A DNA stretch of 43,821 nt from Candidatus Aenigmatarchaeota archaeon. Lineage in GTDB: Archaea; Aenigmatarchaeota; Aenigmatarchaeia; GW2011-AR5; JAHLMP01. Every line of letters begins with the position of its first letter. Positions within the stretch are counted from its first letter, which is position 1. The notes under the pieces were generated by a model. That model did no database searches and had not been told where the DNA came from. It saw only the letters and a program-made list of their open reading frames with translations. The position numbers and the translations under genes were made by a program. The stretch is from NCBI GenBank assembly GCA_018920315.1, contig JAHLMP010000007.1:1-43821 (forward strand). The letters are read 5' to 3'. Shown one piece after another: positions 13,702 to 35,917 of the stretch.

Positions 13702-15177
13702 TTATAAAATGCTTCTTCTGATTTTCTTTTCCAATTCCTTTATTCTATTTTCAACTATTTGTGAAGCTTCCTCTTTACTTTTTACTTTTCTCAGATCATT
13801 TGCAAGCTTTTCATCCTTTATTACATCTCTTACCCAATTGCTAAAGTCGTTTTTCTCATTATTTGCATGGTAGCTATAAGTTTCATTGCTCATATTCTTT
13901 AGCCCGTCTCTTAGCTCGTATAAGTTTTTAAATACCTTTCCATCGTGGCACCAAAAAATATCGCTAAAATCACTTAAAATTCTTAAAGCCTCTTCTTTCT
14001 TCATTTCAGCTTCACCTCTCAATCTTTGTTTTATATCATTTATTATATTCATAAATATTATAAAGGCTTCATAAGGTGAATCATAAGGATTGAAATATTT
14101 ATGCACATCGCCATCAGCAAACCATTTTGTACACATATAATAAAAATGATCGGCAGTTTGTAATTTTCTCCATGCATCTATTATATTTCTATCTTTTGTT
14201 GCCAAAATAGCTTGCTCTAAACTATAAAGCTCATTTAAAGCAAATTGTTGCATCTTATTTCCTATCCATGCAGTAAGATCTCGCTCAGTATCTGCCCAAG
14301 AAACGTAGTTTGGAAAATCTAAATCTGCTACGGGCTTAAATTTCTTTATTGCTTCAGAAGGCAAAACAAAATCTATTCCTCTTTTCAGTGCTTCTATAGG
14401 AAATTCTTCTAAAAATTCAAATATACCGCTCTCTTTCCACTGATGTTCTCCAAATGTTTCATAGTCCATAAAAATGTTGACAATATCGCCTTGAACTTGA
14501 GACACCCAACTAATATATTTATCTGGAGTTAGTGGCCATTCGCTCCATGAGCTATTTGAAAATCTAAAAGCTATGTCATCGCTCAACCTATAATGTTTTA
14601 AGAGCAAAATGATGTTAGCATCTTTTGCTTTATATAAGAAGCATGGTGATCTCCACTCCAAAATTTTATCGGCCCCTTCTGCTAATATTGCTTTATAACC
14701 CAAAGATTCTACAATTTTTCCTATTTGATTTTGATAAACTAACTCAGTATTTCTAAAAATCTTTGGCTTCTTTCCAAAAATTTCCTTGAGCTTTTTCTCA
14801 TGCAACTTTATTTGTGCAACAAACTCTTTTAAAGAATATATACTCGCAAGCGAATGATAATATGTTTCTCCGACAAGCTCTGCGCAACCAGTTTTTATAA
14901 TTTTTTCGAATGACTCTATAACATGAGGATATTCTTCTAATTGTTCAAGTAAAGTTCCTGTAATACTAAAACTTATCTTAAATCTTCCATCAGTTTTATG
15001 AATTAGCTCTAAAATTATTTTGTTTGTAGGCAAGTAACTTTTTTCTATTATTCTTTCTAAGTATAATTTATTTCTTTCTTTATCGAAATAGTCTATATCT
15101 TTACCAATATCGAAGAATGTAAATCTTTTTAGTCTTATTGGTTGATGAACATGAAGATAAAAACATATGCTAGCCAT
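13702..15177 (-). CDS. GH57 family alpha-amylase / glucanotransferase-like hydrolase
   Basis: A 491-residue glycoside hydrolase of family 57, acting on alpha-glucans. Motifs in order are LHVHQP (residues 8-13), GETYYHSL (103-110), IFRNTELVY with the nucleophile E145, and MDYETFGEHQW with acid/base D238. A helical C-terminal domain follows, with SWADTERDLTAWIGN. The layout fits the Methanocaldococcus-type amylase annotation. Intracellular, as no signal peptide is seen. ATG 15177 is chosen over 15198 because GGTGAG sits just upstream and because it lies 4 nt after the preceding gene's stop, so the two genes are translationally coupled. Confidence 0.85.
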   Translation of the reverse strand: MASICFYLHVHQPIRLKRFTFFDIGKDIDYFDKERNKLYLERIIEKSYLPTNKIILELIHKTDGRFKISFSITGTLLEQLEEYPHVIESFEKIIKTGCAELVGETYYHSLASIYSLKEFVAQIKLHEKKLKEIFGKKPKIFRNTELVYQNQIGKIVESLGYKAILAEGADKILEWRSPCFLYKAKDANIILLLKHYRLSDDIAFRFSNSSWSEWPLTPDKYISWVSQVQGDIVNIFMDYETFGEHQWKESGIFEFLEEFPIEALKRGIDFVLPSEAIKKFKPVADLDFPNYVSWADTERDLTAWIGNKMQQFALNELYSLEQAILATKDRNIIDAWRKLQTADHFYYMCTKWFADGDVHKYFNPYDSPYEAFIIFMNIINDIKQRLRGEAEMKKEEALRILSDFSDIFWCHDGKVFKNLYELRDGLKNMSNETYSYHANNEKNDFSNWVRDVIKDEKLANDLRKVKSKEEASQIVENRIKELEKKIRRSIL

Positions 15178-19738: not shown

Positions 19739-21472
19739 TTATAGTTTCTTTATTTCTTTTATTTCTTCTAATAGCTTTTTCTCTTCCTCGCTTAGAATAT
19801 TTTCATATTTCTTTAATGTTGCATAACTATTTTCATCTATATTTGAAAATAATATATCATTTTCAAAAATATTTCTACCGACAACAGCATTGGTAATAGA
19901 GATTGCAACCTTCATACCTTTGGTTGCAATTGATAAATTAACGCCTTTATCTTGTATCTCTTTTATTTTTCCTAATTCTATTATTTTTTTATCCTCTACT
20001 TTAAACAAATCATAATCACCTTTTATTCTTCCTTCTAATATCTCGCAGCCGACTATTGCTGGCTTGCTTGCTCTAAAAATATATCCTGGAATTATTCTTA
20101 TCTTTGCGGGAAAAACAACATTTTCTAGCTCTTTTTCTAAAAGTTCTTTTTTCTTTTCTTCTTTCCATTTCATATAATTTTCAAAAAGTTCGTAGATTAT
20201 ATCTGAGCTTATAATTTTCACTCCATTCTCTTTTGCTATTTTATTTATTTCTTCACTACTCTTTATATTGAAAGCAATAATAACTCTTAGAAAAATGTCT
20301 GAGTTTATACTTGCTTCTAAGATATCTTCTTTTGTAACCTCCCCTATATCACAATATTTAATCTTGAAATCTTTGAAAATATTTTTCAAGGCATCGAGCG
20401 CTCCCAATGTGTCTGCCTTTAGAATCATTCCTTCCTCTTTTTTAATAGTAAAATCTTGTGAGTATTTCTTTTCTAAATCTTTTGCAATAAGTTCAGCTTT
20501 TCTAATATCTTTTGTCAAAAAGAATTCAAATCCTGCTATTATATCTTCTGTGTCTTGAACCAATAATTTTACTCCATAAGAAGCTTCTATAAAATTTACA
20601 TTCTCAAATGTTTTCTCTACTCTTATGTCTTGGATTTGTTTTGGAATTAAAATCGCTCTTATCTTTGTTATCTTTGCTTTTTTACCAAATGTCACTAAAT
20701 AATCTCCAACTTCTATTTTTCCATCTATTAATATCGCGTCTATTGTCTTTCCTAATCCTTTAACATCCTTTATTTCTAATATGACCCCACAAGAATTTTC
20801 AGTTTTTAACAAAAATCTTTTTAGAAATTTTTCAGACAAACCGGCAAGAATATATAGAAGTTCTGGAATACCTTCGCCGGTTTTAGCACTTATAGGCACT
20901 GCCGCTATTTCTTTTGTGAAGTCGCTTACCCTATCGAATCTTTCACCCTTAAGGTTAAATTTTTCTAACTCGCTTATTATTTCATAGAATCTTTTTTCAA
21001 ATTCTATTTTCACGTTCTCATTTTGATAATTATAATTTTCCAAAAAGCTTTGGGAAATTGACTTCCAACCATGAAATTTATCAATTTTATTTACCGCGAG
21101 CACAAAAGGTGTTTTACTTTCTCTCAAAAGCTCGATACATTCTTTTGTTTGTTGCATAAAACCTTCTAAAATATCAACAACAAGTATAGCTATATCTGCA
21201 ATCTTACAACTTCGCTCGCGCATGCATTTGAATGCTTCATGCCCTGGGGTGTCGATAAACAACAAACCTGGAATGGAAGACTCAAAACTTCTAAATTTTT
21301 TGCTTATACTCTTTATCAAACTCATTGGAACAAATGTAGAGCCTATCGATTGTGTTATCTGTCCAGCTTCTTTGTCTGCTACTCTCGTATTTCTAATTCT
21401 GTCTAATAATGTTGTTTTTCCATGGTCTATATGACCCATTACTGTGATTATGGGCGATCTGTACATAAACAA
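19739..21472 (-). CDS. infB: Translation initiation factor aIF5B
   Basis: A GTPase that joins ribosomal subunits and checks initiator tRNA. Visible elements are G1 GHIDHGKTT (13-21), G3 DTPGHEAF, G4 NKID (about 127-130) and SAKTGEG. Beta-barrel domain II, alpha/beta domain III (AIIIFNIKSSEEI-type region) and the C-terminal barrel with FRASKPAIVGCEILEG follow. At 577 residues it is near the archaeal norm of ~600 and has no intein. ATG 21466 is an alternative start. It is the neighbour of the split initiator tRNA genes, its functional ligand. Confidence 0.95.
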   Translation of the reverse strand: MFMYRSPIITVMGHIDHGKTTLLDRIRNTRVADKEAGQITQSIGSTFVPMSLIKSISKKFRSFESSIPGLLFIDTPGHEAFKCMRERSCKIADIAILVVDILEGFMQQTKECIELLRESKTPFVLAVNKIDKFHGWKSISQSFLENYNYQNENVKIEFEKRFYEIISELEKFNLKGERFDRVSDFTKEIAAVPISAKTGEGIPELLYILAGLSEKFLKRFLLKTENSCGVILEIKDVKGLGKTIDAILIDGKIEVGDYLVTFGKKAKITKIRAILIPKQIQDIRVEKTFENVNFIEASYGVKLLVQDTEDIIAGFEFFLTKDIRKAELIAKDLEKKYSQDFTIKKEEGMILKADTLGALDALKNIFKDFKIKYCDIGEVTKEDILEASINSDIFLRVIIAFNIKSSEEINKIAKENGVKIISSDIIYELFENYMKWKEEKKKELLEKELENVVFPAKIRIIPGYIFRASKPAIVGCEILEGRIKGDYDLFKVEDKKIIELGKIKEIQDKGVNLSIATKGMKVAISITNAVVGRNIFENDILFSNIDENSYATLKKYENILSEEEKKLLEEIKEIKKL

Positions 21473-21541: not shown

Positions 21542-21593
21542 TAGCGGGGGGTGGATTTGAACCACCGACCTCCGGGTTTCTAACGAGTCCGCC
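21542..21593 (-). tRNA. Split initiator tRNA-Met, 3' half gene with leader
   Basis: Read on the minus strand, a 16-nt leader GGCGGACTCGTTAGAA (21593-21578) precedes tRNA positions 38-73 (21577-21542). These are A38, CCCGG (anticodon-stem 3' strand), AGGTC variable loop, GGTGG-TTCAAAT-CCACC T arm, CCCCGCT acceptor strand and discriminator A; CCA is not encoded. The 5' anticodon-stem strand CCGGG is missing upstream, so this is not a complete tRNA. The leader pairs with the trailer of the 5' half at 21675, and GA-A/A-ACC gives a 3-nt AA|A bulge for the splicing endonuclease. A TATA-like TTTTAATTATA lies about 22-24 nt before the leader. Confidence 0.85.
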
Positions 21594-21674
21594 TAATTAA
21601 TGCTTTATCTATAATTAAAATGAAAGATTTAAATATGATATAAGAGACTAATTAATAATAGCACTCTTAGGCAT

Positions 21675-21747
21675 AGCGGGGTAGAAAGCTTTTTTAGCTT
21701 GCCTAAAGCAGCCTGGAGTGCTCGCCGGGCCCATAGCGTGGTCCGCC
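21675..21747 (+). tRNA. Split initiator tRNA-Met(CAT), 5' half gene with trailer and D-arm intron
   Basis: It encodes AGCGGGG (acceptor strand, perfect match to CCCCGCT of the 3' half), TA, then after removal of a 22-nt intron the D arm GAGC-AGCCTGGAGT-GCTC, G26, CCGGG and CCCATA (32-37, anticodon CAT at 21732-21734). The trailer GCGTGGTCCGCC (21736-21747) is complementary to the 3'-half leader (GTCCGCC/GGCGGAC plus further pairs). Joined product: 75 nt, with A1:U72, three G:C pairs at 29-31/39-41 and C33, hallmarks of initiator tRNA. The A37|G cut falls in a 3-nt bulge TA|G. A T-rich tract follows the trailer. Confidence 0.87.
21685..21706 (+). other. 22-nt BHB intron within the 5' tRNA half, between positions 10 and 11
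   Basis: Excising AAAGC...CCTAA restores a four-pair D stem (GAGC/GCTC). Its fold is a bulge-helix-bulge: outer hairpin AAGCT/AGCTT closing a TTTTT loop, central 4-bp helix GGGT/GCCT (two wobbles), and 3-nt bulges AG|A and AA|A with symmetric cuts. The exon-side outer helix is weak, as in relaxed noncanonical archaeal introns. Confidence 0.75.
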
Positions 21748-21896
21748 ATTTTCTTTTTTATTTTACTATGTTCATTTTAACCTATTTTTATACATTTAGC
21801 TATTTTTATCTGAAATAAAATGTTAAGCGAAGAGAATAGAAATAACTATAATAATACTTATTCTTGAGAACTTTCAAAGATTATTACCTAAATCTT
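21748..21896. other. Spacer after the 5' tRNA half
   Basis: An AT-rich gap with a T-rich tract (21749-21765), likely the terminator of the 5' tRNA half. The rest shows no gene, repeat or RNA fold that I can support. Confidence 0.4.
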
Positions 21897-35802: not shown

Positions 35803-35917
35803 TGGGCGTGCGAGGATTCGAACCCCGGACCCCCAGCTTGCTTCGTTCTCATCATTTATCAGAGCTTCTATGTTTACATAGAAGGCTGGTGCTCTATCCA
35901 AGCTGAGCTACACGCCC
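35803..35917 (-). tRNA. tRNA-Arg(TCT) with 40-nt intron at 37/38
   Basis: Acceptor GGGCGTG/CACGCCC, D arm GCTC-AGCTTGGATA-GAGC, anticodon stem CCAGC/GCTGG and loop CTTCTA|A give anticodon TCT. The T arm is CGGGG-TTCGAAT-CCTCG with discriminator A; no CCA is encoded. The intron spans 35878-35839. A canonical bulge-helix-bulge fits: central helix CTTC/GAAG with perfect pairing, bulges TA|T and CA|A. Confidence 0.95.

Follow-up and report, generated by a model that had tools for sequence, protein, structure and literature searches.

Introduction

Some transfer RNAs (tRNAs) are assembled from separately encoded pieces. Whether these split tRNAs represent an ancient state or descend from genes with introns has long been a question. 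In Nanoarchaeum equitans, the initiator tRNA, iMet(CAU), is encoded in two halves that join at 37/38 and carry a complementary trailer and leader (PMC3218864 Table 1; PMC3491384). Here we describe a candidate split gene for the same tRNA in an uncultured Candidatus Aenigmatarchaeota archaeon (GCA_018920315.1, contig JAHLMP010000007.1; the window is the whole stretch of DNA analyzed, 43,821 nt). In N. equitans the two loci are far apart and Table 1 gives no intron, whereas the halves described here are divergent neighbors, with a predicted D-stem intron in the 5' one. The split tRNA-Asp of Thermosphaera aggregans resembles this locus in having adjacent halves on opposite strands and a 37/38 junction (PMC3218864). 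However, its halves are convergent, no cis intron is listed, and both isotype and phylum differ.

Other systems share single features with the locus. The tri-split tRNA-Gly of Caldivirga maquilingensis also comprises three segments and requires two splicing events (PMC4033280, PMC4390854), but it is made from three transcripts, whereas two are predicted here and one junction lies in cis. Two kinds of disruption are likewise combined in permuted tRNAs that contain a cis intron, namely iMet of Thermofilum pendens (37/38) and Arg of Cyanidioschyzon merolae (14/15) (PMC3218864, PMC3978253); those genes are permuted, whereas the gene in the window is split. ARMAN archaea have non-canonical, multi-intron tRNAs and a three-unit (epsilon2) endonuclease (PMC4033280, PMC12397907), as found here, but a split tRNA, proposed for this genome, is not listed for them in PMC4033280. 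Our literature search turned up no account of split tRNAs in Aenigmatarchaeota.

Results and discussion

The search of this genome yielded one initiator tRNA gene, which very probably consists of divergent halves split at the anticodon loop, with a 22-nt intron in the D stem of the 5' half. The 5' half spans 21675-21735 on the forward strand and the 3' half 21577-21542 on the reverse strand. On the forward strand, 21675-21747 reads AGCGGGGTAG (exon 1, tRNA positions 1-10, 21675-21684), AAAGCTTTTTTAGCTTGCCTAA (the 22-nt insert, 21685-21706), AGCAGCCTGGAGTGCTCGCCGGGCCCATA (exon 2, positions 11-37, 21707-21735, with the anticodon CAU at 21732-21734), and GCGTGGTCCGCC (a 3' trailer, 21736-21747). 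On the reverse strand, 21593-21542 consists of a 5' leader (21578-21593), GGCGGACTCGTTAGAA, which pairs with the trailer, followed by exon 3 (positions 38-73, 21542-21577), ACCCGGAGGTCGGTGGTTCAAATCCACCCCCCGCTA, in which CCA is not encoded. Because the halves are on opposite strands, they are predicted to be separate transcription units. Each occurs once in the host genome (G000; 713 kb, 9 contigs, completeness 85.9%), and a search of that genome found no further copy.

When the two halves are joined and the insert is removed, they form a perfect cloverleaf. The predicted mature tRNA shares 69 of its 75 positions with the intact gene of the nearest relative, a member of the same family (genome G001); the other six make up three compensatory pairs (7/68, 30/44, and 51/67, by index). 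Two of these, 7/68 and 30/44, hold one base in each half, which would have no easy explanation if the halves did not function in a single molecule. Co-folded with the 3' half, the 5' half minus its intron gives all four tRNA arms together with a trailer/leader helix of 8 bp and 5 bp (-58.5 kcal/mol).

Within the 5' half, the layout of exon 1 matches the intact gene of G001, and the insert lies exactly between positions 10 and 11. A first-pass annotation of this DNA had proposed that removing these 22 nt restores the GAGC/GCTC D stem and that they fold into two 3-nt bulges, a 4-bp helix, and a 5-bp hairpin; both proposals agree with our analysis. The central helix pairs 21679-21682 with 21701-21704 (GGGU/GCCU, in which both end pairs, two of the four, are G-U), and the hairpin pairs 21686-21690 with 21696-21700 (AAGCU/AGCUU) around a U5 loop. 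The bulges, AG|A (21683-21685) and AA|A (21705-21707), flank the central helix at the exon-intron borders. The insert folds at -8.0 kcal/mol alone and at -9.3 kcal/mol with two weak exon pairs, 0.1 kcal/mol above the minimum (-9.4 kcal/mol), in which one pair is shifted. The label bulge-helix-bulge (BHB) given to the motif holds for its bulges and 4-bp helix but not for its outer exon helix, which is weak. With two weak exon pairs in place of a real outer helix, the cis motif is closer to the relaxed HBh' form.

All four central pairs and an in-register hairpin of at least 5 bp were obtained in 194 of 200,000 shuffled inserts, and 34 of the 43,799 22-mers in the window passed the same in-register pairing test. 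The register for both tests was taken from the first-pass annotation, so the comparative evidence carries more weight than the shuffle test. Genes with an intron at the same site (10/11) number 12, this one and 11 further distinct genes, mostly from Aenigmatarchaeota (the organism's own class plus named genome records), and their introns are 18-39 nt long. Across the 12 genes, 46 of 48 central-helix pairs are formed, compared with 17-30 in slid registers. When the introns were dealt among the genes, a mean of 43.7 central pairs was obtained, and at least 46 formed in 23 of 2000 trials. The gene of G001 has neither insert nor split, and most relatives also lack the segment, which is the opposite of what conservation as part of the tRNA would give.

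We considered an 11/12 junction, which would give an identical mature RNA. However, it breaks the central helix, and relatives in which the intron begins with T place the site at 10/11 (checked by hand). A second D-arm intron site, placed by hand at 14/15, is also common in relatives.

The best reading of the locus and its relatives, as the first-pass annotation suggested, is that one essential tRNA would need both ordinary (cis) and trans splicing. In the proposed pathway, the 5'-half transcript would shed the D-stem intron by cis splicing, the 5'-half trailer would anneal to the 3'-half leader, the splicing endonuclease would trim off trailer and leader, and RtcB would ligate the exons. G5-G7 and U8 take part in the central helix of the intron, which would set intron recognition in competition with closure of the acceptor stem; for this reason, the cis intron would best be removed while the halves assemble or earlier. 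The earlier claim that three RNA segments are needed did not hold, as exons 1 and 2 lie on the same strand only 22 nt apart. The predicted count is two transcripts carrying three exons (1-10, 11-37, and 38-73), and this is not a tri-split tRNA. The first-pass annotation's description of an intron-bearing half as unusual fits PMC3218864 Table 1, where cis introns are given for permuted tRNAs only (two permuted archaeal tRNAs) and none for split tRNAs. Caldivirga is omitted from that table, and priority of the intron-bearing half over Caldivirga is not proven.

Comparison with relatives bears on how the gene was split. Among related genomes, 56 had a matched initiator 5' part, each with exactly one match (56/56), and 62 loci were checked by script for a downstream 3' part. 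The script found no 3' match at five of the 62; two were in the host genome, and three had disrupted 3' parts that were readable by eye. The host genome was therefore the only one without a 3' part downstream on the same strand. Introns at 10/11 and 37/38 occur together in one cis gene in three genomes (G033, G093, and G094). The split arrangement probably arose by breakage of a gene with these two cis introns, a form that relatives still carry; such a two-intron ancestor is plausible from the gene structures. Within a single class, the gene is found intact, with one intron, with two introns, and split, so the direction of change can be tested on a tree.

Two relatives, G013 and G042, appeared at first to hold further split genes, with a protein gene after the 5' half. 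Their 3' halves lie 287 nt downstream, and both are cis genes with a coding intron. In these loci (L039, G042:C5:292-576, and L006, G013:C8, minus strand), the initiator 37/38 intron of ~287 nt is filled by an open reading frame of ~89 amino acids, with weak similarity both to a small nuclease (4qbo, E 0.002) and to phage endonuclease/Holliday resolvase families. It may encode a homing nuclease; the G013 copy looks frameshifted. In four other relatives' initiator tRNA genes (L003, L040, L060, and L074), introns apparently lie inside the acceptor stem.

Several points weigh against a split gene matured by two splicing events. The split was observed in one genome alone, and an intact copy could sit in the missing ~14% of that genome (9 contigs, ~86% complete). 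The 7-bp Watson-Crick run between trailer and leader was matched by 256 of 20,000 shuffles, which makes it moderately unlikely by chance. The trans junction folds as a 4x4 internal loop, 5 bp, a 1-nt bulge, and 8 bp, and a strict 37/38 BHB there would have only two of four central pairs (hand count); as modeled, the trans junction is not a strict BHB. It could be 36/37 or 37/38, because the A can derive from either side, and exon 2 would end at 21734 in the former case. When the sequences upstream of tRNAs were scanned for a TATA box, no clear preferred position emerged, and neither half shows a clear promoter box. Finally, transcription, cleavage, ligation, and the order of these steps are inferred from the observed sequences, pairings, relatives, and enzyme genes.

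The genome encodes a predicted ARMAN-type three-unit splicing endonuclease. Residues 27-410 of this 410-aa protein match the ARMAN-2 enzyme (4fz2, E 8.6e-107), and the Tyr, His, and Lys motifs are kept. Its predicted pseudo, catalytic, and structural units on a single chain correspond to the epsilon2 type. A gene for RtcB is also present. Three-unit endonucleases cleave non-canonical introns (PMC4033280, PMC12397907), and such an enzyme fits a genome with few full-length tRNA hits and frequent T-loop introns: only two of the 12 above-threshold Rfam tRNA hits span 71-74 nt. These tRNA counts are partial, being based on searches and selected stretches of the genome. Multi-intron tRNAs are numerous in this genome. 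T-loop introns were seen in many of its tRNAs, for example, in L019, L021, L023, L024, L025, L027, L029, and L098, the last of which apparently has three introns in one tRNA.

The gene structure could be as described while each junction has its own enzyme, the three-unit endonuclease for one and, for the other, an EndA paralogue of 212 aa (G000:C9:3163-3441, L134), whose gene adjoins a tRNA. The presence of this second EndA-like gene gives the idea its basis, but we consider it unlikely, as the HSVRK Lys of the 410-aa enzyme and its relatives is matched by Ala in the aligned paralogue. The paralogue is probably not catalytic by itself, judging from this substitution, and may serve the 410-aa endonuclease as a structural partner.

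We give little credence to the halves being decaying remnants, with a normal initiator tRNA gene in the unsequenced part of the genome. Genome completeness and the indirect case for transcription of the halves leave room for this. However, the stems are all perfect, all six differences from G001 are compensatory with two pairs spanning the split, the trailer is complementary to the leader, and the initiator tRNA gene is single-copy in relatives. Similarly improbable is an assembly or binning error, in which the 3' half of an ordinary cis gene, interrupted by a 37/38 intron, was flipped by an inversion or chimera. The assembly is of metagenome type, and such cis introns do exist in relatives, but the sole inverted repeat (~8 bp) is too short to mislead an assembler, and a cis gene that was simply inverted would not end up with its two 5' ends face to face across an 81-nt spacer. 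In addition, a separate leader precedes the 3' half, and aIF5B follows it immediately on that strand. We found nothing in favor of the 22 nt being a retained D-arm expansion rather than an intron, and the chance of this is negligible, as the insert breaks the D stem, is replaced at that site by unrelated inserts in the relatives that have one, and pairs through a central helix that covaries with the acceptor strand.

Beyond the initiator gene, the same genome contains a permuted tRNA-Ile(GAU) (G000:C6:14403-14486; L032, L137). Its 3' part (14403-14445) precedes its 5' part (14450-14486) across a 4-nt spacer, the parts would be joined near 30/31 with a 9-bp complementary leader/trailer, and each part is single in the genome. 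According to a 2014 review, an organism with all three disrupted-tRNA types had yet to be identified (PMC3978253). Taken as a whole, we favor, with some reserve, the view that this genome holds all three kinds (multiple cis introns, split, and permuted) and that its initiator tRNA needs cis and trans splicing and arose from a two-intron gene. Aenigmatarchaeota, with an ARMAN-like endonuclease, would thus join the few lineages having split tRNAs.

Neighboring features and annotation

The halves diverge from an AT-rich spacer (21594-21674), which presumably contains one promoter per half but shows no clear positional box. Downstream of the trailer, a T-rich stretch (21748-21766, forward strand) is a possible terminator for the 5' half. 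On the reverse strand, the 3' half is followed directly by the gene for an aIF5B/IF-2-type initiation factor (19739-21472). The 3' half with its leader (21542-21593) lies ~70 nt upstream of it on the same strand, so that two parts of translation initiation adjoin.

Automatic annotation misses the split initiator gene. ARAGORN reported zero tRNAs across the window, and Rfam recovered only a T-arm fragment at the locus (13.9 bits). Elsewhere in the window, 35803-35917 on the reverse strand is a probable tRNA-Arg(UCU) with a 37/38 intron.
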